This document shows, in pieces, positions 3,401 through 27,466 of a stretch of 33,192 nt of DNA. The position numbers were made by a program, and so were the translations under genes. Numbering within the stretch: position 1 is the first letter of the stretch; each line of letters opens with the position of its first letter. The notes beneath the pieces were generated by a model. It had not been told where the DNA came from. It saw nothing but the letters and a program-made list of their open reading frames with translations, and did not search any database. The stretch is from Elusimicrobiota bacterium (lineage in GTDB: Bacteria > Elusimicrobiota > Elusimicrobia > Elusimicrobiales > UBA9959): assembly GCA_012517285.1 (NCBI GenBank), contig JAAYVG010000030.1, forward strand, positions 1-33,192. Reading direction: 5' to 3'.

Positions 3401-5280
3401 AAATCCCTCATCATATCGACATACTGAGAACCCTGGCCCGGAAACACAAAACCAACCTTTCCTTTATAATTATGTTTTTTCTTGAAAGGATATATTCCCT
3501 TAAGCTTGAAACCAAGTGGTACATCATCAAATATGTTTTCATTCATGTTTTTTTTGATGAAATCAAGCTTTTCATTAAAATCACGAGGAGATTTTGAAAC
3601 AAGGGTGATTCCCATATCATCCTGATTCTTATCATTTAGTTCAACCGATATCAGCGTCTGTGGATAGACATCAGGAAGCTGTTTGATTTTTTCTCCAAGC
3701 TCATCTAACTTTGATGAAAGCTCTGAGATGTTTTTTGATGTAACTGTAAATGTTTCTCCCTGAAGAAGTGAAAAAGGTGCTTTAGGGTCTTCTTTAATCT
3801 CAACTGTATTCATTTTAATCTCCTCATTCCTATTTTCAACCGATACATTTTCAAATGCTGAATTAACTCCATACTTTGTTTTCCCTTCAACATACTCTTC
3901 CAAAGCAACGTGGAAGTTTGTCCCACCAAATCCAAATGATGACACATTTACTCGTCTTGTTCTATCTGTTTTCCACTCAAGTGGCTCTGTTATAACCTCT
4001 ATACCTGAAAAATCAATATTTGGATTGGGAATTTTAAAATTTGCAGATGGTGGAAGAATCTTTTTATACAACGATAGTGCTGCTTTTATAAGGCTTATAG
4101 AGCCTGCGGCAGCCTTTGTATGACCTATGTTTGATTTTGCAGATGTCACCATAATCTTTCTTCCACTAAGATATGGCTTAAAAACGTTATTTAAAACCTC
4201 ACACTCAGCAGCATCACCGGCCCTTGTAGCAGTTCCATGACACTCGACATAATCAACATCCCCAGGCGTATAATCAAGCTCTTTAAAAGCATTTTCTATT
4301 GCTATCTTCTGTCCCTTTGGATTAGGGGCTGTTATACCTTTTCCCTTGCCATCGCTTGAAGCACCAACAGAATTTATAACTCCATATATCCTATCACCAT
4401 CCCTTATAGCATCTGATAATCTTTTTAAAACATATATTCCAACAGCCTCAGCCATAACAAATCCATTAGCCCTCTCATCAAAAGGAAATGATCCATCAGG
4501 AGAGAGAGCACCTATCTTACAAAACTTAACATAAGCAGCAGGGCTCATCATCTCATCAGCTCCACCAGAGATCATAACATCAACCTTACCTGATCTCAAA
4601 GCCATGACAGCATAATCAAGAGCAGCAAGCGATGAGGCACACGCCGCATCAACAGTCAGGTTTGGTCCATTGAAATCAAATACATTTGCGATTCTGCCAC
4701 TGGTAATATTTGCAAGCTCACCAGGCATAGTATCCTCTGTTATTTCAAGTATATTATCATCAATTCTCTTTTCATAATCTTCTATAAATTTTTTCTTTTC
4801 ATCATCAGTCATTTTCATAAAGGCATCTGTTTCAAAAAACAAATATTCATTAAAAAACTTGTAAACCCTTAAATCTGAAAACTCCTTCTTCATAGCACCC
4901 ATAGCATTTGCTATTACAACTCCTACGCCTTTAGGATCCCATTTATTTGGAGAATAACCCGCATCATCAAGTGCCATCTTAACCGCTTCTATCGTAAGCT
5001 GCTGAAGCCTTGAGATCTGAACAGCAGAGGATGGTGGGATCCTGTATTTTATAGGGTCAAACTTAAAATTTTCAATAAATCCACCTATCTTTGAGTATGT
5101 CTTATCCTTTGCCTTATGGTCATCATCATAATAGAGATGCCAGTCCCATCTATCCTTTGGGACCTCAGTTATACAATTTTTTTTGTTTATAATATTGTTC
5201 CAGAACTCATCCTTATTAAAAGCCTTTGGTGCTATTATACCTATACCAGTTATGGCAATCTTTTCATTTTTAAAAATCAT
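1..5280 (-). CDS. Type I polyketide/fatty-acid synthase, KS-AT-KS-ACP..., C-terminus off the window
   Basis: One open frame of 1760 codons runs from ATG 5280 to the window edge with no stop; I checked the frame across the repeat tracts in 1-600 and found it open. It should build a long acyl or polyketide chain from malonyl units. Domains by residue: KS1 about 1-450 with Cys214 (DAACASSL), His348 (CHGTAT) and His387 (NIGHTK); AT about 605-900 with FPGQGSQ, Ser710 (GHSLGE) and His815 in HAFH, a motif usual for malonyl; KS2 about 1029-1560 with Cys1298 (SAACSSTT), His1446 (SHETYT) and His1486 (FTGHTMG); ACP about 1655-1725 with GIDTVKQ. Both KS triads look intact. The ACP has Thr1682 where phosphopantetheine Ser is expected. 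AAAGGAG lies just before the ATG. It follows the pilin genes by 211 nt. The product is unknown: PUFA-, glycolipid- or polyketide-type are all possible. Confidence 0.93.
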   Translation of the reverse strand, partial: MIFKNEKIAITGIGIIAPKAFNKDEFWNNIINKKNCITEVPKDRWDWHLYYDDDHKAKDKTYSKIGGFIENFKFDPIKYRIPPSSAVQISRLQQLTIEAVKMALDDAGYSPNKWDPKGVGVVIANAMGAMKKEFSDLRVYKFFNEYLFFETDAFMKMTDDEKKKFIEDYEKRIDDNILEITEDTMPGELANITSGRIANVFDFNGPNLTVDAACASSLAALDYAVMALRSGKVDVMISGGADEMMSPAAYVKFCKIGALSPDGSFPFDERANGFVMAEAVGIYVLKRLSDAIRDGDRIYGVINSVGASSDGKGKGITAPNPKGQKIAIENAFKELDYTPGDVDYVECHGTATRAGDAAECEVLNNVFKPYLSGRKIMVTSAKSNIGHTKAAAGSISLIKAALSLYKKILPPSANFKIPNPNIDFSGIEVITEPLEWKTDRTRRVNVSSFGFGGTNFHVALEEYVEGKTKYGVNSAFENVSVENRNEEIKMNTVEIKEDPKAPFSLLQGETFTVTSKNISELSSKLDELGEKIKQLPDVYPQTLISVELNDKNQDDMGITLVSKSPRDFNEKLDFIKKNMNENIFDDVPLGFKLKGIYPFKKKHNYKGKVGFVFPGQGSQYVDMMRDLAMKYDVVMDTFKEADKILEKMIGTTLTDTLWSKPGETKEQLAERENAIKQTQMTQPAVMTADMAMFRLLMSFGVKPDMVIGHSLGEYAAATAAGIFDLENGLRAVTSRAKEMSNVKVKDPGKMASISWPYEKVEEQLKKVKGYVVAANKNCPIQTVIAGEKEAVDEAVNLFKALGVQTQDVAVSHAFHSEIIRPAIGPYREFLKKIPISSWNIPIISNVTADFFPKDKEAIYDLLVTQMVSPVEFINQLKKMYAEGVRIFIECGPKRVLSSLVKETLKDKDDIFILSTNHPKRGGIYDFNDAIANLITVNFKLNWSDKYIKPDSKFYNPYYFNWAIKTEDRRQKSEVRGQKTEDTRQKTEDSLPVNGVMAGGQDQHGEATSAQAGTEDRRQKSEEMRREATMDINEFVKNYGFNFNPISVSGIAAGVPGSDKELFRERGLDEILQGINMIEPIPEDWQQKQINKNIIRIIKSETGNHRIEAIDSIDGAIKLSARKGRFDLVKDFGVDPKIADSLNSTFRMAIAAGVLALKDAHIPLVHYYKKTTTGSWLPEKWALPDEIADETGVIFASAFAVLESIVKEVTDYFVNKYSSLSDDKLWDVYDSIVERIHSDEDKKEIRKWMKENLANFSSGKTGKYQFSQNFLLKVIPIADSQFAQFVGAKGPAIHLSAACSSTTQSVHVAESWIRSGKCKRVIIVAADDISNELLQEWLMPGFVASGTATTKARVEDAALPFDRRRHGLIVGSGAVAMVIEDETLVRDRGVVPLARILLTEAKNSAYHVTRLDTDHVSDIMNNFMSKIERIYNLSRKEIAPKTLFVSHETYTPARGGSASAEVKALKKTFGDDVSKVIVSNVKGFTGHTMGASLEDAIAIRALNTGVVPPIANYKEPDPELVGINLSKGGKYNLKYAIRFAAGFGSHMAMSFIENTYTAGEKRIIDEKRYNNWLRRISGYDTPELEVVNNALRIKDKGPVKTANSGQWSVDSGQWTENRGQKTEESFKVTSTAVGSERATNNSTGLNEKEVADKIVDMIASKTGYPKDMLDLDLDMEADLGIDTVKQAELFGMIRESFGIPKQESISLKDYPTIRHCVKFVMDSKTEVRGQRTEDRSQKSEVRKQKAEESSNDTSTAVGSEP
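41..121. repeat. 7-bp repeat tract TCTGWCY inside the synthase, after the ACP
   Basis: Degenerate tandem copies of a 7-bp unit (tctgact, tctgtct, tctgacc and variants). On the minus strand they are translated in frame as a polar linker rich in Gln, Lys, Glu, Arg and Ser between ACP 1 and the predicted ACP 2. The same unit occurs at 412-483, 2205-2393, 21381-21400 and around 32945. Confidence 0.85.
412..483. repeat. 7-bp repeat tract inside the synthase, KS2-ACP linker
   Basis: The tract mixes the tctgtct unit with the second variant, gtccactgacc. The second variant is otherwise seen between genes at 7103-7212 and 21440-21503. Translated on the minus strand it gives a linker containing two GQWSVD copies. 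It lies exactly between the end of KS2 and the ACP. Confidence 0.85.
2197..2215 (-). promoter_or_regulatory. Shine-Dalgarno-like site and ATG inside the synthase, before KS2
   Basis: The minus strand reads GAGGAGGGAGGCAACT and then ATG at 2196, the codon for residue 1029 and the first residue of recognisable KS2 sequence. Both AGGAGG and GGAGG are suitably placed. This could be a relic of, or a working start for, a separate KS2-ACP protein. Confidence 0.5.
2205..2393. repeat. Composite repeat (7-mers plus palindrome) inside the synthase, AT-KS2 linker
   Basis: Two blocks of tctgtct-type 7-mers flank a GC-rich imperfect palindrome (2246-2278, core gccgaagtggcttcgcc) and an outlying piece gacgggcaggctg. 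The same palindrome, also flanked by 7-mers, recurs at 7159-7191, 21403-21433 and 30569-30601. Here it is translated in frame as about 60 low-complexity residues between the AT and KS2 regions. Confidence 0.85.
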
Positions 5281-5491: not shown

Positions 5492-6175
5492 TTACCACTG
5501 AGGTGGACGATTAATGGCCACATAAAACTCATTGGTTGTATCAACATCTCTTGCAACCTTAGAGTAGTCACCCTCGCCAGTATGATAGTTAGCCTGCCAA
5601 AACAATCTTAATGTAACCCTAACAATATTGTTTGGTAAGTTTTGCCTTCCGAAGATAGTTGTGCTGTATAAACCAATGTTTGGTGCAACCAAATTACTCG
5701 ATACAATGGTTCCACCTGCTGCACCGCATGGTGGGGGTGATGGCAGAGAAACCACACTATTAGTTGCACAGTTTCCACCATTAAAAACCCCTGTATGATA
5801 ATAAAGTAAATTGCCTGATAGACAGAAATAATGCCATGTTGATGTGTTATTGATATCTGGTCTACAGCCTAATGATGATGAAACAGGTGGCGGAAGCCTT
5901 GTAAAATTAGAAAAAAAGAAAAGATTGTTTGAATTGCTTCCAACCCATGGTAACTGAATTTCAGTTGCTGTAACAAGCTTATTTTTAATAAACTTTGTTG
6001 CAAGTGTTAATCTGTTCTTCCATAAATCTTCTCTGTATCTCTGATAGAAATAGTTATTAGCAGTTATATAAACGGTCGAGAGGGTTGTCAGCATAAAAGT
6101 AAATATTATAAGGCTAACAAGCAATTCTATAAGTGTAAATCCTTTTCTGTTATATATTCCCTTTTTCATAATCAA
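5492..6175 (-). CDS. Type IV prepilin-like minor pilin / pseudopilin (PilW/GspJ type)
   Basis: A 227-residue protein with a class III leader: a basic stretch ending NRKG, cleaved before FTLIELLVS with Glu at +5, then a hydrophobic helix to about residue 35. Prepilin peptidase would cleave after the Gly and methylate the Phe. The soluble domain carries a Gly/Pro/Cys-rich middle and ends NRPPQW. The length and the FTLIELLVSLIIF pattern suit a PilW/GspJ-like minor subunit at a fibre tip. Its ATG overlaps the TGA of the upstream pilin (ATGA), so the two are translationally coupled; a second ATG lies two codons in. It is the last pilin gene before the synthase. No convincing terminator follows. 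Confidence 0.85.
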   Translation of the reverse strand: MIMKKGIYNRKGFTLIELLVSLIIFTFMLTTLSTVYITANNYFYQRYREDLWKNRLTLATKFIKNKLVTATEIQLPWVGSNSNNLFFFSNFTRLPPPVSSSLGCRPDINNTSTWHYFCLSGNLLYYHTGVFNGGNCATNSVVSLPSPPPCGAAGGTIVSSNLVAPNIGLYSTTIFGRQNLPNNIVRVTLRLFWQANYHTGEGDYSKVARDVDTTNEFYVAINRPPQW

Positions 6176-6645
6176 TCTGGATAGTTAAGAGTAAAACTCA
6201 CTTGCTTACAGGCATTTAATCCCCAACCAAAGCCACAGTCGCTATCAGTTATTGTATAGGTAAAACTACAATTAGCAACAGATCCGTTGCACAGCTTCGT
6301 CTTAAAAGGTTCGCTTTGTAGTATGTTAGTTATATTATGGTTACCGGCCTGCAATGCCCAACCAGTATATGTATCACACTGATTTCCGACATCAACAAAA
6401 TTAATACAAAATCGCCAGCTTCCTTGAGGTGCTGATATTAATGAACCAGAGGTATCTGATGTCACATAATTTTTTAAGGCTTCTTGAACCATTTTTATAG
6501 CAAGCCCCGATATTTCTCTCTTATCACTCTTTTTTTGTGAGACCATACTTGATGTAAATATAGAAAATGTAGCCATAGTAACCATAGCAGTTATAAGAAC
6601 TGAAACCACAACCTCAACCAGTGTAAGTCCCTTTCTTTTTTTCAT
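6172..6645 (-). CDS. Type IV prepilin-like minor pilin / pseudopilin (PilV/GspI type)
   Basis: I start this at ATG 6645 (MKKRKG, cleavage before LTLVEVVVS, Glu at +5), giving 157 residues. The frame can be extended to a TTG at 6660, but that overlaps the previous pilin and lengthens the leader without need. The hydrophobic N-terminal helix with LVEVVVSVLIT resembles PilV/GspI-type minor subunits. The C-terminal half has several Cys (KLCNGSVANC, SDCGFGWGLNAC) that could form disulfides outside the cytoplasm. It starts 2 nt after the stop of the 145-residue pilin and ends in a 4-nt ATGA overlap with the next gene. Confidence 0.83.
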   Translation of the reverse strand: MKKRKGLTLVEVVVSVLITAMVTMATFSIFTSSMVSQKKSDKREISGLAIKMVQEALKNYVTSDTSGSLISAPQGSWRFCINFVDVGNQCDTYTGWALQAGNHNITNILQSEPFKTKLCNGSVANCSFTYTITDSDCGFGWGLNACKQVSFTLNYPD

Positions 6646-6647
6646 AT

Positions 6648-7085
6648 TTATCTTGGACAATCACTTGTATCAGGAACACCCGTTCCATACGCTCTACAAT
6701 TTCCAACAGTATCCACCTCATACCTCCATCCCTTAGCAGTATTAGAAGCACAGGCAATTATTCCACCATTACACCCACCACCTCCACAGCTAGCAGTATT
6801 GCAGGAATAAAAAGCCCATTGGCCGCTCCAATCAGTTGTGGCTTTTGATGCTATATATTTTCTTGTTACAAGTAAATGATTATTGGTAACCTGACCGCTT
6901 ATATAAGCATTATTATCAAGCTGATACATCCTGTTCGCGTTTGCAATCATCTGTAATGTTGACAGAGCATCCATAGCCTTTGATGTATCTATCGTTTTTC
7001 TGTACTGAGGTACGGCAATGGTTGTAAGAATACCAATTATAAGAACCACAACCATAAGCTCTATGAGTGTAAAACCATTTTTCAT
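6648..7085 (-). CDS. Type IV pilin, probable major subunit of the fibre
   Basis: A 145-residue prepilin with a four-residue leader MKNG, cleaved before FTLIELMVVVLIIGIL with Glu at +5, followed by PQYRKTI. This is the classic N-terminal helix of type IVa pilins and GspG-like pseudopilins. The globular part contains YQLDNNAY and a C-terminal Cys pair region (GNCRAYG, SDCPR) like a pilin D-loop. GGAGG lies 7 nt before the ATG. It is the first of three pilin genes and is separated from pilC by 215 nt of repeats and a hairpin, so it may be expressed at a different level. Pilus and secretion pseudopilus cannot be separated from sequence alone. Confidence 0.88.
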   Translation of the reverse strand: MKNGFTLIELMVVVLIIGILTTIAVPQYRKTIDTSKAMDALSTLQMIANANRMYQLDNNAYISGQVTNNHLLVTRKYIASKATTDWSGQWAFYSCNTASCGGGGCNGGIIACASNTAKGWRYEVDTVGNCRAYGTGVPDTSDCPR

Positions 7086-7102
7086 CTATTACCTCCAACT
7101 AA

Positions 7103-7212
7103 ATAGTGATCAGTGGTCAGTGATCAGTAATCAGCAAAACCTTAAACAGTGAGCAATGCCTGCCTGCCGAAGCCGCTTTGGCGTAGGCAGGGATAGTCGG
7201 TCAGTGAATGGT
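7103..7212. repeat. Intergenic composite repeat between pilC and the pilin genes
   Basis: 7-mers of the form gatcagtggtcagt are followed by cagcaaaacc, then more 7-mer-like units, then the palindrome at 7159-7191 (gccgaagccgctttggc core) and gtcggtcagtg. Block order matches the copy at 21381-21503 when that one is read on the opposite strand, including the cagcaaaacc spacer. Confidence 0.8.
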
Positions 7213-7267
7213 TAATTAAAGTATATTCCTTATCACTGATTCTGCCTACCACCAGCATATTTCTAAA

Positions 7268-7285
7268 ACAAATCTTGCGATTTGT
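7268..7285 (-). terminator. Hairpin downstream of pilC
   Basis: On the minus strand ACAAATC-GCAA-GATTTGT forms a 7-bp stem with a GNRA-type loop, followed by a short T run, 15 nt after the pilC stop. It could terminate or attenuate transcription between pilC and the pilin genes. The short T run makes it a weak call. Confidence 0.45.
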
Positions 7286-7300
7286 AGATAGGCAAATAAA

Positions 7301-8524
7301 TTATCCGCCCTTTATCTGCGAAAGCTGGAATATCGGTATATACACAGACATAACAACCGTTCCTATAACACTACCAATAATTACCATCAGCAGTGGATCT
7401 ATCATAGCAGAAAACCTTCTTAAAAATTGATCCATCTGTTCCTTGTAATAAACAGATAAAACATCTATCATATCAGGTAATTTTCCAGACTCCTCACCCA
7501 TAAGCATCATATCGGTGACAAACTGAGGAAACGCCCCACTTCTCTTAAAAGAATCTGATATCATCTTACCACTTGTTATATCATTCTTTGCCTTTTTTAA
7601 AGCATTCTGTATTATCAAGTTTTGCTTAAAAGCGGTTTCAAGCACAGCTATAGAGTTTATAATACTAACACCGCTTTTTAAAAGAGTTGACATCGTGGTC
7701 AAACATCTCTCATAGTTTATACTTTTAATGAATCCACCAACAATAGGTATTGAAAACTGAAACTTATTCCAAGCTAAAAGACCCGATTCTGTTTTTATAT
7801 AGCTTTTAAATGACCAGTAGCCACCTATAGCTACAATTATCATTATAAGCCAGTAATTCCTAACCACATATGAAAAGCCCATAACAGCCTTAGTTATTGC
7901 AGGAAGCTTCATACCAAAATCAGTAAATATCTGAGAAAATACAGGAACAATAAAGATAACAAAATAAAACAAAACCCCCATAGAAAGCATAAGAAGAACC
8001 GCAGGGTACGCAAAGGCTGTTATTATCTTGCCCTTTATCTCCTCCTGTGTCTCTTTATATGATGTAATCTGTCTTAATACCAGTGGCAGCTGTCCAGAGA
8101 CCTCACCAGCTGATACAAGAGAAACCCATATATCATCAAAGATCTGAGGGTGCTTTTCAAGAGCCTTGTGAAGTGCACTACCAGACGATACATCCTTTGT
8201 TACCTGAAACAACACTGATTGCAAAGACTTATTTTCACTGTTCTCAGATAAAAGTGATAATGCCCTAACCAGTGGGACGCCACCTGCAACAAGTGTTGAA
8301 AGCTGTTCACCAAAGAAGCATATTTCCCTGCCTGATACCTTTCCACTACTCTTTTTTCTTAAAGCAAAAAGTCCTTTGGCACTTTCCTTCTCAGACTGTA
8401 TAGAAAGTATAAAATATCCCTTGTTCTGCAAATTTGAAATTACATTATCCTCATCATCACTCTCCATTGAGCCTGTGGTAACATTTCCCTGACTATCCTG
8501 AACTGTATATATAAAACGCGGCAC
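7301..8524 (-). CDS. pilC: Type IV pilus / type II secretion inner-membrane platform protein
   Basis: A 407-residue GspF/PilC family protein, the normal length, with two GspF repeats. Each repeat has a cytoplasmic helical part (FGEQLSTLVAGGVPLVRAL and YERCLTTMSTLLKSGVSI) before membrane helices at about 165-195, 219-237 and 376-398. It sits in the inner membrane and couples the assembly ATPase to pilin polymerisation. The start is GTG, preceded by AGGAGG at good spacing. It follows pilB by 52 nt in the same direction. The C-terminal IDPLLMVIIGSVIGTVVMS is typical of the family. PilC rather than GspF is chosen because of the PilMNOPQ neighbours. Confidence 0.93.
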   Translation of the reverse strand: MPRFIYTVQDSQGNVTTGSMESDDEDNVISNLQNKGYFILSIQSEKESAKGLFALRKKSSGKVSGREICFFGEQLSTLVAGGVPLVRALSLLSENSENKSLQSVLFQVTKDVSSGSALHKALEKHPQIFDDIWVSLVSAGEVSGQLPLVLRQITSYKETQEEIKGKIITAFAYPAVLLMLSMGVLFYFVIFIVPVFSQIFTDFGMKLPAITKAVMGFSYVVRNYWLIMIIVAIGGYWSFKSYIKTESGLLAWNKFQFSIPIVGGFIKSINYERCLTTMSTLLKSGVSIINSIAVLETAFKQNLIIQNALKKAKNDITSGKMISDSFKRSGAFPQFVTDMMLMGEESGKLPDMIDVLSVYYKEQMDQFLRRFSAMIDPLLMVIIGSVIGTVVMSVYIPIFQLSQIKGG

Positions 8525-8576
8525 TCAATCCTCCTAAAAATTTACCAACTATCTAATTTAAATATTATATAAAAAT

Positions 8577-10319
8577 TTACATCTCAACTATAGTAGTGGA
8601 GAGCATCTCCTCAACAGATGTCACACCAGCATAAACCTTTCTCCATCCACTTGCCCTTAAATCCCATCTCCCCTGTTTCTTTGTCACTTCTTTCATCTTT
8701 AACATATCAGGTTCATGGGTTATTATCCTCTTCAACTCCTCTGTTATAAAATAAGTCTCATATATTGCTACTCTTCCCTGATAACCTATATTAAAACACT
8801 TAGGACATCCCCTCGGCTTATAAAATATAACCTTATTCAGATCAGGCAATGGATTTATCATAGACTCCCTTCGAAACATCTCCAGCTCTTCCTGTGTTGG
8901 TTTATATGGTTGTTTGCACTCAGGACAAAGTCTTCTAACAAGCCTCTGAGCCTCAGTCAAAAGGAGTGTTGATGCTAACAGATATGGTTCCACTCCCATA
9001 TCTATCAACCTCGGTATGGCTTCTATCGCATTGTTTGTATGCAGTGTTGATAGAACAAGGTGACCTGTCATAGCAGCCTTTATACAGGCCTCAGCTGTTT
9101 CATTGTCCCTTGTTTCTCCAACCAGTATGACATCAGGATCCATACGAAGAAATGACCTTAGTCCTGCTGCAAATGTTAAACCTATCTCAGGCTTTATCTG
9201 TACCTGACTTATCCCATCTATTTTTACCTCAACAGGATCCTCAAGCGTTAAAAAATTCATCTCAGGCGTTTTAATTGTTGTAAGCAGTGCTGCAAGGGTG
9301 GTAGTTTTACCTGAACCTGTTGGTCCTGTAACAAGTATAAGGCCATGAGGAGAATCTGCAGCCTGAAAAAAATCTCTCTTCTGCTCAGGATCTAATCCCA
9401 TTTTATCAAGATTAAGTTCAACGCTACCCTTGTCCAGCAAACGCATAACAAGCTTTTCGCCAAAAACTGTCGGACATGTAGCAACACGAACCTCTATGGT
9501 TCTGTTCTGATATCTTATAGAGAAACTACCATCCTGAGGCAGTCTTTTTTCAGCAATGTTTAATTTTGATAAAATCTTAACCCTTGCTATGACATTATCA
9601 AAAAGATCCTTAGGTGGGTTTGTTCTTTCATGAAGCACACCATCTATTCTAAATCTTAATGAAATCTTTTCGTCATATTTTTCCAAGTGGACATCGCTTG
9701 CTCTTTCAGCTATCGCCTGCTTTAATATGGCGTTAACAAGCTTTATTGCTTGAGCACCGCTTGATTTGCTCATTATTGCTTTATCCAGATCAAGCTTTCC
9801 ATCGGCAGTCATAGAATCTATATCATTTGTATCCTCAGCTGAAGCCTTTGAATCCACCACCTCATCTATGAGATGAGTCTCAGATTGATAAAATGAGTCA
9901 ATAACCTTTAATATCTGAGCCTTCGTGGATATGAAAGTTTGTACCTCCATACCAGTCATAGCCCTTATGTTATCAATAAGCATAAGATCAGTTGGATCAG
10001 ACATTGCTATGGCAATCATCCCACCTTCGACAAAAAGTGGGATTACATAGTTATCCCTTGCAAACTTTTCAGTTATTATCTTCTCCATCCCCTGACCCTT
10101 TTCTGGTTTTAAAATCTGATTTGAAACAGATGCATATGGTATTCCTAACTGTTTTGATAAAGCTATTACGAGCTGTTCTTCATTTATATAGCCCAGCTTA
10201 ACAAGAGCCTCACCTATAAGCCCCTTGTTTTGCTGCTGATATTTAAGTGCCTTTGTTAATTGTTCATCATTGATTATGCGTTGCTCTATTAATATTTCAC
10301 CTAATTTCTTTCTTGACAT
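8577..10319 (-). CDS. pilB: Type IV pilus assembly ATPase
   Basis: A 580-residue GspE/PilB family ATPase, full length. Residues 1-130 form the MshEN-type N-terminal domain (LGEILIEQ...LGYINEEQL). The core has Walker A GPTGSGKTT at 332-340, an Asp-rich segment TLEDPVE near 358-364, Walker B VILVGE at 397-402 and a His box near 426. A tetracysteine zinc site is at Cys465, 468, 505 and 508, typical of extension ATPases of the PilB/GspE group and absent from PilT. It should power pilin assembly from the cytoplasmic face of the PilC platform. ATG start, no clear Shine-Dalgarno; it begins 14 nt after the pilQ stop. No pilT-like gene is present in the window. Confidence 0.95.
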   Translation of the reverse strand: MSRKKLGEILIEQRIINDEQLTKALKYQQQNKGLIGEALVKLGYINEEQLVIALSKQLGIPYASVSNQILKPEKGQGMEKIITEKFARDNYVIPLFVEGGMIAIAMSDPTDLMLIDNIRAMTGMEVQTFISTKAQILKVIDSFYQSETHLIDEVVDSKASAEDTNDIDSMTADGKLDLDKAIMSKSSGAQAIKLVNAILKQAIAERASDVHLEKYDEKISLRFRIDGVLHERTNPPKDLFDNVIARVKILSKLNIAEKRLPQDGSFSIRYQNRTIEVRVATCPTVFGEKLVMRLLDKGSVELNLDKMGLDPEQKRDFFQAADSPHGLILVTGPTGSGKTTTLAALLTTIKTPEMNFLTLEDPVEVKIDGISQVQIKPEIGLTFAAGLRSFLRMDPDVILVGETRDNETAEACIKAAMTGHLVLSTLHTNNAIEAIPRLIDMGVEPYLLASTLLLTEAQRLVRRLCPECKQPYKPTQEELEMFRRESMINPLPDLNKVIFYKPRGCPKCFNIGYQGRVAIYETYFITEELKRIITHEPDMLKMKEVTKKQGRWDLRASGWRKVYAGVTSVEEMLSTTIVEM

Positions 10320-10333
10320 ATTTTTAAAAAAAA

Positions 10334-11989
10334 TTAATCCACTAATATAGTTGGTGTTATAAATATCACAAGATCTGTATTTGTTCTCCTCGTGCTAGTT
10401 GATGTAAAGAACCATCCTATAACAGGGATATAACCCAACAGCGGGACTTTCTTTATGGTCTTCTGCTCAGTAGATGAAAGCATTCCGCCGATAACAACAG
10501 TCTGACCATTTTTGACCCTGACCATTGTCAAAGCTCCCCTTGTAGTTGGATCTAAAACAGTTGTGCCCTGTATCGTAACAGCTGAGGTCATGGTATCAGA
10601 GTATGATGGTTGTACTAACATGGTGATATAACCCTCTTTGTTCACCTGAGGTGTTACCTTTAAAGTCAAACCAACCTTTATCCTCTCCACCCCACTTGAT
10701 GAAGAGCCAGCATCTCCACCTGCTGACACAACAGTTGTCTGTGAAGCCACAGCAGCATTCTTTGATATTGTAACTATAGAAGTTTTGTTGTTCATAGCTA
10801 CAATCTTTGGTGTTCCTAAATATCTTGCCTCACCCCTCGAGATCATCGCCCTAAATATTGCCTGAAGCTGAGCCAAGCTGAACACGCCATAATAAACTCC
10901 CTGCGGACTTGTTTTACCGGTAGAAAATATTGGATCCATAGACCCGCCACCGCCACTGCTGCTTGAAGAGCTATCCCCACTTGTGCTTCCAATATTTGTT
11001 ATTTCTGGGGTGGCAGGAAAAAAGCTGTTATCGGTTCCACCTGAAAACATACCAGGTCTTAAAGGCCAATCAGTAAGCCTTGCTGGACCAGCGAAATATG
11101 CAAGTGTCCCATCAGTCCCCCCCCACTCTATTCCTAAATTGTTCAGTCTATCAGTGTTTATCTCAACAATCCTTGCCTCAATAAGTATCTGAGGGGCTTT
11201 TTTATCAAGCTCAGCTATTATCTGCTCTATCTGTGGGAAAACCTCTGGTATATCAGTAACTATTATACTGTTAGTCCTTGCATCCACTGCAATACTCCCA
11301 TATTTCTTGCTCAAAACACTTCTTATTATTTTTACTATATTTATACCACCAGAATCATCTTCCTTTTGACCTGAAGATTCATGGCCAGAATTAATAGACA
11401 TAAGCGAATTGTTATTGCTATCACCTAAATCTAATTCATTATCCTTTTCTGTGAGTGGAATAAGAGGTATATAGTTTAATGTATAGATTTTTGTTACCAT
11501 ATTAGGTTGAGTCGCTGTTCTTCTTGTTATTATATATGTGCTGCTTCTTCCTATTCTCTGATATGTCAATCCTTTAACTCTCAGAAGGATTTCAAGAGCT
11601 TCTCTCACAGTCGTCTTTCTTAAAAAAACCGTTATTCGCTTATTGACCACGTCATCGCTTATAATAAAATTAACATTTGATTGAGCAGATATTATATCAA
11701 GAAAACTTGTTAACGGTGCATCCTTAAGCCTTATCGGTCCTATCTTTTTATCCAGCGGTGATATATCCTCAGACTCCTCATAAAGAGGAGACTCTATAAC
11801 AGCATCAGCCTTTATCGGTGAACCTGGGGTCTGAGTCTTTGATGGTATGGTAATGTTGGATGTATCAGCAGAGTTGGTATCATCAAGTATTGGACCGCCC
11901 ATATCTGAATCAAAACTATCCTGATTTGACTGAGCAAAAAGATAAAATGGACACAAGATAAACAAAAAAGATATTATTATTCTACACAT
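10334..11989 (-). CDS. pilQ: Secretin, outer-membrane pilus/secretion pore
   Basis: A 551-residue secretin with a signal peptide (cleavage near residue 19, after FLFA). The N-terminal STN-like domain is at about 85-145 (KDAPLTSFLDIISAQSNVNF), a NolW-type domain at about 157-255, and the secretin core at about 256-549. The core carries the hallmark near the C-terminus (VKNGQTVVIGG, then KVPLLGYIPVIGWFF). A Ser/Gly-rich insertion lies at about 338-352. It would form the outer-membrane ring through which the pilus or substrate leaves. AGGAGG sits 4 nt before the ATG, and the gene starts 8 nt after pilP. It is shorter than proteobacterial PilQ, with no AMIN domain visible. Confidence 0.93.
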   Translation of the reverse strand: MCRIIISFLFILCPFYLFAQSNQDSFDSDMGGPILDDTNSADTSNITIPSKTQTPGSPIKADAVIESPLYEESEDISPLDKKIGPIRLKDAPLTSFLDIISAQSNVNFIISDDVVNKRITVFLRKTTVREALEILLRVKGLTYQRIGRSSTYIITRRTATQPNMVTKIYTLNYIPLIPLTEKDNELDLGDSNNNSLMSINSGHESSGQKEDDSGGINIVKIIRSVLSKKYGSIAVDARTNSIIVTDIPEVFPQIEQIIAELDKKAPQILIEARIVEINTDRLNNLGIEWGGTDGTLAYFAGPARLTDWPLRPGMFSGGTDNSFFPATPEITNIGSTSGDSSSSSSGGGGSMDPIFSTGKTSPQGVYYGVFSLAQLQAIFRAMISRGEARYLGTPKIVAMNNKTSIVTISKNAAVASQTTVVSAGGDAGSSSSGVERIKVGLTLKVTPQVNKEGYITMLVQPSYSDTMTSAVTIQGTTVLDPTTRGALTMVRVKNGQTVVIGGMLSSTEQKTIKKVPLLGYIPVIGWFFTSTSTRRTNTDLVIFITPTILVD

Positions 11990-11997
11990 TACTCCTC

Positions 11998-12534
11998 CTA
12001 CTTCATAATAAGCTTATAGTTTTTTCCATTATACCTTATAATGACATAACCAGAATAAACCTTAACAAGGGTAAACTCTTTTTTATATGGCATTCCTTCC
12101 TGAACCATCTCTCCATTTATTATAGCATATTTACCGACTATACCCTGAAGCTTGTACTTTTTTAATGGATCTTCCTTTTTCTTCTTTTCAACAGGCTTAC
12201 CTATCATTGCCTGCATCCTTTCTTCCTCTTCTCTTTTCTTCTGTTCTGCCATAAGTCTTATCTGTTCATACTCCACAGGACTTAGAAAAGGATCTCTGTT
12301 TGATTTTGGAGAAAAATAAGATTTCACATTAAAACCTTCCTCAGCAGAGACAACAGGAGATGATGAGATATCAACACCCTGACTTTGGGTTGAATTTATA
12401 ACACTGTTAGATGATACCATATTATCTGAAACTGCCATTCTTATTTTTAACATATCAACAGAAGCATTCATATTAAAAGGGTAGATGAAGATTAATAATG
12501 ATAACAAAGCAGCAGCATTTAAAAATATTTTCAT
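11998..12534 (-). CDS. pilP: PilP/GspC-like periplasmic connector
   Basis: A 178-residue exported protein with an N-terminal hydrophobic segment (residues 4-24). The SNRDPFLSP motif (about 79-87) resembles the RDPF motif of PilP. A charged helix follows (EQKKREEEERMQ), then a small beta domain (LQGIVGKYAIINGEMVQEGMPY) of the PilP/GspC homology-region type that docks on the secretin. No lipobox Cys is seen, so it is probably anchored by the N-terminal helix rather than as a lipoprotein. It overlaps the pilO stop by 4 nt (ATGA) and is followed by pilQ after 8 nt. The assignment rests on the motif plus gene order. Confidence 0.78.
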   Translation of the reverse strand: MKIFLNAAALLSLLIFIYPFNMNASVDMLKIRMAVSDNMVSSNSVINSTQSQGVDISSSPVVSAEEGFNVKSYFSPKSNRDPFLSPVEYEQIRLMAEQKKREEEERMQAMIGKPVEKKKKEDPLKKYKLQGIVGKYAIINGEMVQEGMPYKKEFTLVKVYSGYVIIRYNGKNYKLIMK

Positions 12535-13139
12535 ACAACCCTCTCTGCAAATACAGTGGAAACGACAAGCGAGACATTAAGTTTCCCAAACTCACCTGAT
12601 ATCTTTGTGACAGTAAGACCTGATATATCAACAAATATATTATGATTCTCAATATCACTTAGGAACAAACCGAGAGTATGGTAATCCGTTATAAAATGTA
12701 CCCTTTTAGAAACAAGATAAATATTTTGGTCTGCCAATTTTATCTCTTCCTGACTTTCTATATTAGTGAATACTATCTTATATTTTGCTGCAGTAGAGTT
12801 TAAAAGCGTGTTAAGCCATTCATCCTTTTCAGTTATAGGAGGAAATGAATCAATATAATTGTTTGTTTCTTTTTTTAGTGTAACATATTCATTATAAAAA
12901 CCACTTAGATTCTTCAATTTGGAGAGTTCTGTAATATCAGAATTCAGTGTGCTCTTGTTTGAAGCGTATATAAGATAAGATATCATTATAGCACCTATAG
13001 AGTACATAAGTGGTTTTTGAAAAGGTTTCATCCCCTTTTCAATGTAAACAGACTGAATGTCTGATATAAGATTTTTTACCTCTTTAAAGAGTTTATCACT
13101 TAAATTATCAAAAAATTCTTTTATTTTTTTCTGGTTCAT
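12531..13139 (-). CDS. pilO: PilO/GspM-like alignment-complex protein
   Basis: A 202-residue bitopic protein: a short cytoplasmic head, one membrane helix near 42-60 (LMYSIGAIMISYLIYAS), a coiled-coil stretch (LSKLKNLSGFYNEYVTLKKE), then a ferredoxin-like PilO domain (TDYHTLGLFLSDIENHNIFV). It should pair with the PilN half of the upstream fusion in the inner-membrane alignment complex that links the platform to the secretin. It shares 4-nt ATGA overlaps with both neighbours, so the PilMN-PilO-PilP set is translationally coupled. Sequence similarity in this family is low; position supports the call. Confidence 0.8.
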   Translation of the reverse strand: MNQKKIKEFFDNLSDKLFKEVKNLISDIQSVYIEKGMKPFQKPLMYSIGAIMISYLIYASNKSTLNSDITELSKLKNLSGFYNEYVTLKKETNNYIDSFPPITEKDEWLNTLLNSTAAKYKIVFTNIESQEEIKLADQNIYLVSKRVHFITDYHTLGLFLSDIENHNIFVDISGLTVTKISGEFGKLNVSLVVSTVFAERVV

Positions 13140-14692
13140 AGTTTACTTTTATCAAAATTACAGTTTATTGAAAAAGATGCAGATGAGATATCATCATTTT
13201 TATTATAGCTTCCATATGTCTGAGGATCATTGTTGCTAGCCTTATAATCAAGTTTTCCAGGTGGTGCACATATATAAAAACTTTTGCTCTTCCTTATCTC
13301 CTTCACAAAATACTCAATATAGTAAGTCCTAGCATCACCAGTCAAAAGAGTCTCACCATTCATTGACAAGGATATCTGTATACCACTATCAGGGTTTAAC
13401 ATAAAAGGGTTTGAATAAATAAATTCTTTAATCCACAGATCTTTGGGTATTATATCCGCCAAATCTGAAAGCCGGCTTGATACATAATCTCTCTTAATCA
13501 ATATTCTGTTAAATATATCTCTACTTTTCTTCATCTTTTCAATTTTTTTATTGGTTTCATCCGCAGTTAAATTTTTAAACTCAACCACCTCAGGCATCTG
13601 AACCATATACTGAGATATATCCTTTGATATAAAGTGTATCCTTATGGTGTTGATCAAAAAACTTAAAAGAAAAAGTGAAGATATCACACCTGCAATTATA
13701 GATATGTTTTTCATCACAATTTTATCAAATCTCTTACTCTTTTCTATCTCTGATATATCAATAGAATACTGCTCCTTTGTCTGATTTTTTATTGATGAGG
13801 ATATACTTAAAATGGTTGAAAAACTAAAATCAGGTGATACCATTTTATCTGAAAGTTTTACGACTTCAGGCTTTATACCAACATCCATTTCAATATTCTT
13901 TATCCATAACTCAGGAATACCTTCAAAGACAAAAACTTTCTTTACATCCATATTCGGTATCATTCTTTGAGCAAAAAGTATAGAACCCTTAAGATCAAGC
14001 GTTCTCCTTTCTGAAAACGATGAAGACTTAGAAAAAGAAAGGCATCTGAACATTATAGGGATATTTTCATAAGTAAGCACAGTATAGATATCATCATCAG
14101 ATGAATAGATAAATATTGAAGGCTCAAAAACTTTTGTTACAGTATGAAAAAATCTTATAGCAGCAAAGGCAGATGATTCTACAAGCTCTAATTTTATTCC
14201 TAAATTTTTAAGCTGCTGTACCAGAAATTCTGTTGTCTTTTTTTGAGTAACAGAAAAAGCAACTCCAATCTTTGAACGATCACTCATCTGGTATGCATAA
14301 AAGTCGTAGCCTAACTCATCGAACGAAACTGGTATGTATTTCTTAGATTCTATAGGTATAGCCTTGTTCCAAAATTTTCTATCTATATAAGGCATTGCAA
14401 AAAATCTTGTTATAGAAAAATCATGTGAGAGTGATATTACAGCAGAGTTGGACTTGAGATTAGATTTTTTTATTGCATCCTTAAACGCTGTAACCCAACT
14501 CTGCTTCTCGCTGAAAAAATCATTGTTCAGAGAAAGAGGTTTTACTATTCCCTCAGGCTTAAAATTTGTAGGGACATGTACCGTTTTGTTTACATTTATC
14601 TTGTCTTTATTTAATGTAGCAACAGATATCGCTATATCATTTATATCAATATATATGCCGATGGTTTCATTTATATTATCCTTTTTGATCAT
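13136..14692 (-). CDS. PilM-PilN fusion (GspL-like architecture)
   Basis: A 518-residue protein joining two parts normally made separately in type IV pilus operons. Residues 1-300 look like an actin-like PilM domain (TIGIYIDINDIAISVATL at the start, VESSAFAAIRFF as the second subdomain entry). One membrane helix lies at about 329-351 (IIAGVISSLFLLSFLI). The periplasmic part at about 355-518 resembles PilN (SRLSDLADIIPKDLWIKEF). The same layout is seen in GspL of type II secretion, so this may be a GspL-type protein in a pilus-type operon. No frameshift or stop separates the halves. It begins 4 nt after the OmpA-like gene and overlaps pilO by 4 nt. The PilM part aligns only loosely by eye. Confidence 0.82.
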   Translation of the reverse strand: MIKKDNINETIGIYIDINDIAISVATLNKDKINVNKTVHVPTNFKPEGIVKPLSLNNDFFSEKQSWVTAFKDAIKKSNLKSNSAVISLSHDFSITRFFAMPYIDRKFWNKAIPIESKKYIPVSFDELGYDFYAYQMSDRSKIGVAFSVTQKKTTEFLVQQLKNLGIKLELVESSAFAAIRFFHTVTKVFEPSIFIYSSDDDIYTVLTYENIPIMFRCLSFSKSSSFSERRTLDLKGSILFAQRMIPNMDVKKVFVFEGIPELWIKNIEMDVGIKPEVVKLSDKMVSPDFSFSTILSISSSIKNQTKEQYSIDISEIEKSKRFDKIVMKNISIIAGVISSLFLLSFLINTIRIHFISKDISQYMVQMPEVVEFKNLTADETNKKIEKMKKSRDIFNRILIKRDYVSSRLSDLADIIPKDLWIKEFIYSNPFMLNPDSGIQISLSMNGETLLTGDARTYYIEYFVKEIRKSKSFYICAPPGKLDYKASNNDPQTYGSYNKNDDISSASFSINCNFDKSKL

Positions 14693-14696
14693 AAAA

Positions 14697-16307
14697 CTAC
14701 TTCAATCTAACCTCTACTATGGTTTTATTAAAATCAGCGACCTTGCTGTAAACAAGTATATTATTTTTGTTTATCTTATAATTCTTCACCAAAAAATTTT
14801 TCACAACATTGGCTCTTTTAAGTGCTGTCGTCTTTGGCTTTGATTCGTTGGAAGATGAATATCCTACAAGAACAATCTTAGAACGAGGATACTTTTTATA
14901 ATCTGAAATAAATTGTTTGAGCCTTATCTTGCTGTTCTCTGTTATTTTAAAAGTTTCTGAGTCAAAATATACCTTATAAAAAACTTTACTCGCTAGAGGC
15001 AATTTCTTTGATGCCTTAACATTCTTAGCTGTATTCTTTGATGATAATGTCTTAGATGATATCTTTGCAGATGAATTAGAGCTATTATCAGAGTCTGTTT
15101 TTTTATTTAAATCAGTATTTTTATTTCCACCGATATAAATAGTCTTTTTTGCAAAGGAAGTGTTTCCTTTTGTATCTGAAACCTCTAAATAAAACTCATA
15201 GGTCCCAACATCATAATAATTACCAATAAACTTTTCCCTGCCATTAAAAAGTATCTGGGATGAAGTTGGCTCTGTGCCCTCAATCTTTTGTATTGAAAAT
15301 GACTGACCATTTCTATCCAATTTGTTTACAAGAAGCTTCCAGCTACCAATAGGATTCTTTCCCATTATTACTGAAAATTCTATTATGGCTGCCTCATCCT
15401 TTGATATATTTATATTATCAGGATAAATCGATACATAAGCCCCAGGTGATGAAAGATCAGGTGAAAATGTATCAGGCTGTTTGTCATAATTAAGAATCAA
15501 AAGAGTTCCATCAAGGTCATCAATCTTTTTTGATATTGATATATTCGAAGCCAACATATCAAGTTTAACTTTTGTCGGAGATAACCCAGATGACATAAAA
15601 TACGAATGAAGGACAGATGCCTTTCTAACATCAAGTATTTTCATATTTCCCACGACGGCACCATTTGGGACCACCGTAACAGAAACATTTCCAAGCGACA
15701 CAAGCAAACCAGAGATAAGCTTCATTTTGTTTATAATTTTAGTATTAAAAGTGAGGTCAGTGTTAAATATAACATCATTTTTTAATAGTATATAAAGAGG
15801 CTTTTCGTTGTTATCATCCATGTAAAGTTTTGCAAAATTTTCTTTGTAAAGAGAGAGAAGGATATTGGATTTTATTTCCTTTAATTTAGCAGATACTTTA
15901 TCAGCAAGCATATCATCACTGTTTGCATATGAAACAGAATTACTAACTCCCTTCTCGTTATTAAGGGTAACGCTATCATTTGTAACAGATTTGGTTGTAG
16001 CTGCTGGCTGTACAATCTGAGGCGTATTAGCAGAAGAATCAACAGTTTTTACGCTGACACTATTAGCATTTTTGTTGGATTCTGGAGATATACCTGTTGT
16101 TATCTTTGATATGTATTCGTTGGCCAGAGCTTTTTCCTCAGGAGTTCCCTGAACAAGTATATCCATAAACCTGTCCATAGCATCAGTATTTTTACCCTCC
16201 TGGTACAAGGTTATAGCCTGCTTCATCTGTCTTGAATAATTTTCTTCTCCAAAAAAAATGGTGGTAGTTAAAAGACACATAAAAAACAATATAAATTTTT
16301 TATTCAT
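14697..16307 (-). CDS. Exported OmpA-like (peptidoglycan-binding) protein within the pilus operon
   Basis: I start at ATG 16307, giving MNKKFILFF and a clean signal peptide (536 residues). An upstream ATG at 16322 adds five residues and has no better ribosome site. After the signal peptide comes a short TPR-like helix pair (AITLYQEGKNTDAMDRFM), a Ser/Asn-rich linker and a beta-rich middle. An Ig-like segment follows (YYDVGTYEFYLEVSDTKG), then a C-terminal OmpA-type domain (VYFDSETFKITENSKIRL, RANVVKNFLVKNYKI). It probably anchors an envelope structure to peptidoglycan. Its position directly before PilMN suggests a role with the pilus machine, analogous to the peptidoglycan-binding FimV/TsaP proteins, but it is not recognisably either. 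Confidence 0.75.
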   Translation of the reverse strand: MNKKFILFFMCLLTTTIFFGEENYSRQMKQAITLYQEGKNTDAMDRFMDILVQGTPEEKALANEYISKITTGISPESNKNANSVSVKTVDSSANTPQIVQPAATTKSVTNDSVTLNNEKGVSNSVSYANSDDMLADKVSAKLKEIKSNILLSLYKENFAKLYMDDNNEKPLYILLKNDVIFNTDLTFNTKIINKMKLISGLLVSLGNVSVTVVPNGAVVGNMKILDVRKASVLHSYFMSSGLSPTKVKLDMLASNISISKKIDDLDGTLLILNYDKQPDTFSPDLSSPGAYVSIYPDNINISKDEAAIIEFSVIMGKNPIGSWKLLVNKLDRNGQSFSIQKIEGTEPTSSQILFNGREKFIGNYYDVGTYEFYLEVSDTKGNTSFAKKTIYIGGNKNTDLNKKTDSDNSSNSSAKISSKTLSSKNTAKNVKASKKLPLASKVFYKVYFDSETFKITENSKIRLKQFISDYKKYPRSKIVLVGYSSSNESKPKTTALKRANVVKNFLVKNYKINKNNILVYSKVADFNKTIVEVRLK

Positions 16308-16338
16308 AAAAATATTATCCATAAATTATATTAAATTT

Positions 16339-21503: not shown

Positions 21504-21510
21504 TTAAGAG

Positions 21511-21584
21511 AGCCAGGGAAGGGATTTGAACCCTTGACCTGCGGTTTACGAAACCGCCGCTCTATCCAACTGAGCTACCCTGGC
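21511..21584 (-). tRNA. tRNA-Thr (anticodon CGU)
   Basis: The acceptor stem GCCAGGG/CCCTGGC pairs fully. The D-arm is GCTC...GAGC, the anticodon stem GCGGT/ACCGC encloses loop TTCGTAA, so the anticodon is CGT, reading ACG. The T-arm is AAGGG-TTCAAAT-CCCTT. CCA is not encoded. The plus-strand text shows acg in the loop, which is why it can be misread as Arg. Confidence 0.93.
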
Positions 21585-27159: not shown

Positions 27160-27315
27160 TTGAAGTGTTATTGCGGGGGTAGGATTTGACTACAAATAAA
27201 ATTTGCTCACCGCAAATTTTTTCGCAGTCCGCTCCTCGCCCTCATAAATTGCACAATCGGGCTGCGGACTTTCAAATCCTACGAAAAGCCAAATCATTGG
27301 CTTTTCTACCCCCAC
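27160..27315. mobile_element. Structured element carrying a tRNA-fMet 3'-end copy (MITE-like)
   Basis: Bases 27160-27189 are an exact 30-bp copy of 27382-27411, which covers the 3' part of tRNA-fMet and its flank. An inverted piece of the same sequence (tcaaatcctac, 27272-27282; tacccccac, 27307-27315) closes the element. It is interrupted by a perfect palindrome at 27283-27306 (gaaaagccaa/ttggcttttc). Inside are further stems: AAAATTTGC/GCAAATTTT (27198-27220) and AGTCCGC/GCGGACT (27226-27270). There is no coding frame. It looks like a non-autonomous element or a folded RNA/DNA structure derived from the tRNA. Confidence 0.55.
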
Positions 27316-27381
27316 AAAAAAAGTAAAATTTACAAAAAGCTTTTGTTTCTCTACTATAGTCTTTACATAATTAATTGCGTT

Positions 27382-27411
27382 TTGAAGTGTTATTGCGGGG
27401 GTAGGATTTGA
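27382..27411. repeat. 30-bp direct repeat overlapping the tRNA-fMet 3' end
   Basis: Identical to 27160-27189, at a distance of 222 bp. It covers the T-arm and acceptor 3' strand plus about 11 nt of flank, the usual place for integrase attachment sites. No integrase gene is in the window. Confidence 0.7.
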
Positions 27412-27466
27412 ACCTACGACCTCCAGGTTATGGGCCTGGCGAGCTACCGGGCTGCTCTACCCCGCA
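27393..27466 (-). tRNA. Initiator tRNA-Met (fMet), anticodon CAU
   Basis: 74 nt without CCA. The body closely follows bacterial initiator tRNA: GCGGGG acceptor, GAGCAGCCCGGTAGCTC D-arm, GGTCG variable region, TAGG-TTCAAAT-CCTA T-arm and A72-A73. The anticodon stem/loop is CCAGG-CCCATAA-CCTGG. Oddities: base 1 is U opposite A72 instead of the usual mismatched C1; position 33 is C rather than U; and the third anticodon-stem pair is A29-U41 instead of G29-C41. Confidence 0.9.

Follow-up and report, generated by a model that had tools for sequence, protein, structure and literature searches.

The stretch of DNA directly 3' of a tRNA-fMet gene in an Elusimicrobiota bacterium repeats pieces of that tRNA in both orientations around a set of hairpins, and the question raised by this locus is what kind of element could have come to be built in this way. 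The window analyzed here comprises 33,192 nucleotides (contig JAAYVG010000030.1) of a 1.96-Mb draft genome in 52 contigs. The tRNA-fMet (CAT) gene, recognized by ARAGORN and by Rfam RF00005, is the target gene; it occupies 27393..27466 on the minus strand, its T-loop reading TTC|AAATCC, and all features of the element lie on the same strand.

In the direction of the minus strand, the tRNA is followed by an A/T-rich flank (27318..27392), which belongs to the segment duplicated in relatives, as judged from the sequence and from the tandem units of a congener. Next comes an inverted copy of the acceptor 3' strand with one mismatch (27307..27317), found by reading and paired in the DNA fold. P0 (27283..27306) is a perfect 24-bp palindrome or hairpin with a 10-bp stem and a 4-nt loop, a conserved component according to the sequence, the relatives and the DNA fold, and it separates the acceptor copy from a' (27271..27282), an inverted copy of the T-loop/T-stem 3' half that is complementary at 12/12 positions to 27401-27412. 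Two core helices supported by covariation and the DNA fold follow, namely P2 with its distal stem-loop (27226..27270) and P3 (27188..27229). The element closes with a'' (27160..27189), identified by repeat comparison as a direct copy of the tRNA-fMet 3' end from T-loop base 57 together with 11 bp of downstream flank; its pairing with a' constitutes P1. The direct repeat of 27160-27189 and 27382-27411 is exact over 30 bp, with a start-to-start spacing of 222, and the final 2 bp of the 27160..27189 segment match the TC of TTC by chance in this copy. The first-pass annotation had reported the repeat, the inverted partial copy split by the palindrome, and the two further stems, all of which were recovered.

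Fold prediction, also proposed at that stage, gave a stable structure for the minus strand of 27160-27320 both as DNA (-40.4 kcal/mol, z -8.3) and as RNA (-68.6, z -7.0), with 0/200 shuffles equally good in either case. With DNA parameters, the structure predicted from this one copy has the acceptor/P0/P1/P2/P3 arrangement, and the RNA fold deviates in detail. The element units have no coding capacity.

The fMet element is one member of a family of structured elements of about 100-250 bp. When the 3' side of every tRNA gene found was inspected in the window's genome and in the congener, an element was seen directly 3' of 9/44 tRNA/tmRNA genes in the former (3 unassessable at a contig end) and of 20/43 tRNA genes in the latter (1 unassessable), where a possible 21st, behind Gly-tcc, ends with its contig after 38 nt. 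Other copies with long matches in the window's genome lie directly 3' of tRNA-Asn, tmRNA, Gly-tcc, Gly-gcc, Arg-tcg, Leu-caa, Lys-ctt, and Leu-cag. A sequence search of 60 relatives was positive in one further genome, the only congener found, with 15 matches that are all at tRNA loci. A covariance model matched 47/340 Elusimicrobiota genomes at E 1e-4 or better and 21/379 evenly drawn genomes of Patescibacteria, counts that rest on stricter filters and on rough E-values of the model (R1). A tRNA lies immediately upstream at 26/30 of the Elusimicrobiota loci fetched, and a same-strand tRNA lies no more than 400 nt upstream in 33/42 of those fetched from Patescibacteria, where one match (L287) is apparently a false positive.

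Scanning 84,980 species with a pattern for the core alone found at least 119 stretches with a match. The 80 that were listed belong to Elusimicrobiota and Patescibacteria (including Lloydbacteria, Moraniibacteriota, Campbellbacteria, the Parcubacteria group, and others), save a few titled only "uncultured bacterium" or "bacterium", and 73 of the 84 matches in these listed stretches lie 3' of a tRNA on the same strand at a distance of at most 400 nt, with most others near contig ends. For example, the core pattern located an element behind tRNA-Arg in JAJUJA010000066.1 (Elusimicrobiota bacterium). The genomes used are drafts and, to judge from their titles, mostly metagenome assemblies. Among the Rfam 15 covariance models, only tRNA reaches its gathering score; phage and plasmid collections gave no match to the window element as query, and viral contigs gave 0 matches to each of two core patterns. 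The plasmid matches listed for one other locus (L085) span only its tRNA-Ser portion. None of the titles and abstract openings listed in searches of open-access literature describes such elements, and the tRNA-tail elements apparently constitute an undescribed family. The family is frequent in the congener, spread across Elusimicrobiota and Patescibacteria, and missing from Rfam, and the annotation of tRNA ends and of integration sites could be misled by it.

The arms of these elements match the tRNA behind which each one sits. This was examined with 31 units of the window's genome and the congener and 2000 shuffles of tRNAs among units, the regular expression used for the core and arm comparisons having skipped some units (e.g., Asn and Leu-cag of the window's genome and Gly-ccc of the congener). 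Seven bases of the inverted arm are the complement of bases 57-63 of the unit's own tRNA in 25/31 units (shuffled mean 3.6, maximum 10), and nine bases of the direct arm are those of its own tRNA, from T-loop position 57, in 26/31 (shuffled mean 1.4, maximum 8). Among the matches in named genomes the correspondence is weaker: inverted matches of 8 nt or more were found with the own tRNA in 33/73 cases versus 8/5094 with other tRNAs, and direct matches of 12 nt or more in 20/73 versus 0/5094. A looser direct test, with at least 14 of 16 positions matching, gave 28/70 own versus 17/4730 other comparisons; a 9-base inverted test restricted to T-stem bases separated poorly (20/70 own versus 606/4730 other). 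The correspondence is not perfect everywhere: many copies in Elusimicrobiaceae have the direct copy altered or lost, and, by reading, a' of some copies departs from the tRNA at one or two bases, which would turn T-A or C-G pairs into G-A or A-G.

The two arms begin at different points of the T-loop. The direct copy begins with the base that follows TTC in the tRNA, and TTC itself stands before the copy in 0/31 units; the inverted copy continues through TTC. Non-TTC T-loops are mirrored in 3/3 cases seen: TGC as GCA in the tmRNA, TTT as AAA in L140, and TGC as GCA in L196. Because these odd T-loops are mirrored, while TTC never precedes the direct copy, a' extends beyond the point at which the direct copy starts. 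Such mirrored and repeated pieces of the host tRNA suggest a mobile element whose ends are built anew from the target, and to our knowledge no known mobile element re-makes its ends to match each target.

Within one genome, cores behind different tRNAs can be near-identical and have different arms. Six pairs reach at least 93% identity, including Leu-cag versus Glu-ttc at 100% and Thr-cgt versus Leu-caa at 95.1%; in another example, the cores of Arg-tcg and Arg-cct are 97.5% identical, with T-arms GAGTCCTCT and AAGTCCGGC. P0 and the flank belong to the locus and not to the core, the Leu-cag and Glu-ttc copies having the same core and different P0 hairpins. Occupancy differs as well. Four orthologous loci (Arg-cct, Gly-ccc, Val-gac, and Thr-cgt), each tied by a conserved downstream gene of 48-73% amino-acid identity, are occupied in the congener and empty in the window's genome, with no P0 or inverted arm seen at any of the four empty loci. 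One of them lies in the window itself, where the tRNA-Thr (CGT) gene at 21510..21584 on the minus strand is an empty site and the orthologous congener gene has two tandem units. Occupancy differs in eleven tRNA pairs altogether, 10 types being filled in the congener only and 1 in the window's genome only; orthology is supported for just the four, the other seven having no downstream protein match. The first-pass annotation had proposed looking for further copies and for empty sites, and both were found, rather than a lone element fully conserved at its site in relatives. In addition, in the third unit of the tRNA-Lys array of the congener, the core end is joined to tRNA-fMet base 57 and fMet flank (219 bp, 84.5% identity). 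This core-to-fMet junction indicates that the T-loop side of an insertion is precise and the opposite side ragged.

Taken together, we favor, with moderate confidence, the explanation that these are small non-autonomous mobile elements that insert in the T-arm of tRNA or tmRNA genes between bases 56 and 57 (TTC|R), leaving the tRNA intact, by the mechanism outlined below. Mobility as such is probable, movement being something that we infer from the comparison of genomes; the mechanism in its particulars is offered tentatively and is rather doubtful. In this scheme, the tRNA-sense strand would be cut at TTC^R57, and a folded, single-stranded core would be attached by its 3' end to base 57. Extension from the 3' end left free at TTC would then re-copy the tRNA 3' end and its flank, which would produce the direct repeat and keep the tRNA intact. 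The new strand would fold back on its own tRNA 3' end and copy through TTC, generating the inverted arm a', after which synthesis would switch into the core. P0, P2, and P3 would serve as recognition hairpins, and host replication or repair could supply most of the process. Cutting, joining, extension, fold-back copying, and the template switch would yield all four hallmarks: the junction at base 57, the intact tRNA, the ragged-ended duplicated 3' end, and the inverted copy through TTC. Two observations speak against the scheme. P0 is conserved even though it lies within the mirrored arm, and simple copy-back accounts for neither its place nor its conservation. In addition, some a' arms retain a base of donor type, such as the Glu-type fourth G in the first Leu-cag unit, which points to correction at a later stage and not to direct templating.

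The elements are best read as a new class of non-autonomous mobile element with arms regenerated from each target tRNA. They may even, and here the chances seem to us a little short of even, be mobile DNA of a categorically new kind: a folded core without genes, spreading among tRNA genes and across two phyla, with both arms rebuilt for each target by a re-copied tRNA 3' end and a fold-back, so that the insert is custom-fitted and the tRNA never broken. If this is true, there would be a way to insert DNA beside tRNA genes with no carried attachment site, and the elements would preserve a natural trace of fold-back synthesis on single strands in bacteria.

The same ragged outer ends and mirrored arms, the latter expected from copy-back synthesis, could also be produced with no dedicated mobility at all, if template switching by polymerases and palindrome correction, both at stalled forks in tRNA genes, were all that creates and spreads the units, and the lack of a reverse transcriptase, Y1 transposase, or integrase common to the carriers agrees with such an origin. 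We consider it rather unlikely in view of the precise T-loop junction and of a core that is specific and conserved, its hairpin loops included, in two phyla.

P0 had been taken by the first-pass annotation for a second insertion that interrupts the tRNA-derived arm and duplicates TAC, and neither part of that proposal has held. The hairpin is a regular component of the family at the same position, and its loop word AACTGCTT is flanked in relatives by arms complementary at 6/8 positions or better at 126/181 sites, versus 0/63 for the reversed word; this paired, recurrent loop word rules out a random second insertion. A TAC duplication is no feature of the family: by reading, the bases after the hairpin in relatives are usually GT or GG, irrespective of the tRNA.

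The core is a covarying three-way junction, as predicted from covariation. In 14 units aligned by sequence, 30 pairs have 96.2% of their cells paired, 17 pairs show compensatory change, and the covariation score is 0.407, versus 0.158 for shuffled and at most 0.119 for slid versions. The 96 distinct distant matches are 87.5% paired and score 0.468 versus 0.149, in an alignment (A2) that was fitted to the model. To judge from these comparisons, the core fold is under selection, and it may be asked in which nucleic acid. A structured RNA acting in cis on tRNA 3' maturation would be folded too, its inverted arm switching between two pairing partners, the tRNA 3' half and the direct copy further downstream. 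The mutually exclusive pairing partners, the covariation and conserved loops, and the excess of G-T over A-C pairs when P2 and P3 are read on the tRNA-sense strand (17 versus 3 in the well-aligned pairs of A2) all fit such an RNA. Against it, wobble pairs are scarce (17 of about 1,600 cells, versus 55/1,060 in T-stems of the same genomes), and 10 tRNA types are filled in the congener and empty in the window's genome, with 1 the other way round. Moreover, a sister family often has, by reading, a terminator-like hairpin with a T-run between the tRNA and P0. The inverted copy in that family often spans, again by reading, the acceptor end and part of the flank with the terminator, and together with the tRNA 3' end and the terminator it makes up a single long hairpin. 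An RNA switch is therefore unlikely, and the pairing pattern seems to lean toward folded single-stranded DNA.

Which enzyme might move such elements was approached through the gene content of carriers. Reverse transcriptase (PF00078) is absent from the window's genome, the congener, and three further carriers (G013, G021, and G027), which sets the family apart from group II introns, retrons, and other retroelements in the five carriers tested. The Y1 transposase PF01797 occurs in 5/20 genomes with an element match versus 28/41 without (61 genomes), and in 12/17 Patescibacteria carriers. Tyrosine recombinases (PF00589) number only two in each of the same five Elusimicrobiota carriers of the window's family, as expected for XerC and XerD; there are 0-1 in nine Patescibacteria carriers and 3-6 in six carriers on the Elusimicrobiaceae side (G042-G058). 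No integrase gene was found inside the units, and no dedicated one in the main carriers tested. None of the three (reverse transcriptase, Y1 transposase, dedicated tyrosine integrase) tracks the family. An autonomous version with genes of its own would show itself by a direct copy far from its tRNA; behind 156 tRNAs of 119 records, every direct copy found lay within 0.7 kb, a weak result since the records had been chosen for short units.

These counts bear on the classical alternative, namely that the elements are minimal satellites placed in tRNA T-loops by a tyrosine recombinase. Integrative elements of this type break the T-loop, duplicate the tRNA 3' end, and restore the tRNA (Williams 2002, cited in PMC2647930). 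The T-loop break, a direct repeat reaching from the T-loop to beyond the tRNA 3' end around the insert, the restored tRNA, and the tandem arrays are all features that the tRNA-tail family would share with them. In contrast, the tRNA-tail units are of about 100-250 bp, lack an integrase, and possess an inverted copy and a covarying core that are foreign to att sites. Their arms are re-made for each tRNA around near-identical cores, which a fixed attP for one tRNA does not explain. We regard satellites of this kind as quite unlikely. The first-pass annotation had likened the locus to an attachment-site duplication plus a non-autonomous element; the non-autonomous element with a duplicated tRNA 3' end has stood, and a classical, integrase-made duplication has not. 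The remaining proposal, that duplicated tRNA 3' ends are protective decoys diverting phage or island integrases, draws on their being exact copies of common att sequences and is very improbable, for it makes the inverted arm and folded core superfluous and the direct copy is often degraded.

The mobile-element reading finds partial parallels among known systems. IS1294 of the IS91 family prefers to insert at GTTC or CTTG and mobilizes adjacent flank (PMC6052338), and Helitrons have a hairpin near their 3' end (PMC4778049). A hairpin near the 3' end and flank copying are points of likeness, and insertion after GTTC (T-loop bases 53-56) may be another: the tRNA-tail elements always follow T-loop base 56, where GTTC is near-universal, and the three odd T-loops read GTGC or GTTT. 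The tRNA-tail family differs in using these odd T-loops as well and in having a target duplication, which IS91 elements and Helitrons do not. The first two proposed steps (cut and joining) would resemble HUH transposition, and the remainder would resemble repair synthesis.

REP/REPIN sequences with their RAYT and derivatives of IS200/IS605 are small, palindromic, non-autonomous elements that act as a folded single strand and occur in copies genome-wide. The tRNA-tail family shares the small, folded, palindromic, and non-autonomous character, and differs in its strict tRNA location, its target-copied arms, and the absence of Y1 from most carriers of the sister family. Likewise, the integron attC is a recombination site recognized as a folded single strand; unlike attC, the tRNA-tail elements have tRNA-derived arms, and their main carriers have no extra tyrosine recombinase. 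Finally, MITEs carry their own terminal inverted repeats and make a short, fixed duplication, whereas here the inverted arms follow the target and the duplication varies in length.

Several further observations concern the surroundings of these elements. In five tandem arrays of the congener (L054, L071, L072, L231, and L245), the tRNA-adjacent unit is short and subsequent units have an insert of about 62 nt in P2. Several Elusimicrobiaceae copies (L142 at about 4230-4530, L132, L087, and also L119, L176, and L177) contain, between inverted arm and core, a nested insert of about 250-300 nt whose inverted ends read GGGTTGGCAAGGTG/CACCTTGCCAACCC; an Rfam search of the records with this insert returned only tRNA over threshold. 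A REP-like palindrome (CTGCCGAAGCCGTTTCGGCGTAGGCAG) is inserted within the direct tRNA copy of some units (L012 at about 275-305 and L011 at 1-40). In L196, a group I intron (4426-4660, minus; RF00028, 71 bits) lies in an apparent tRNA-fMet gene with a TGC T-loop, and the TGC-mirroring element then follows. In the window's genome, a short tandem repeat of another kind (GACTACGCGTGGTAATCGCTTCGTCTGG) comes after the tRNA-Ser genes of L035 and L042, and several tRNA genes (e.g., L010, L013, and L047) are surrounded by simple repeats of the AGTGGACAGTGATCAG type. Elsewhere in the window, 5492-16322 on the minus strand holds a type IV pilus/type II secretion-like cluster with confirmed T2SSE, T2SSF, and secretin domains and with pilin-like ORFs close by.
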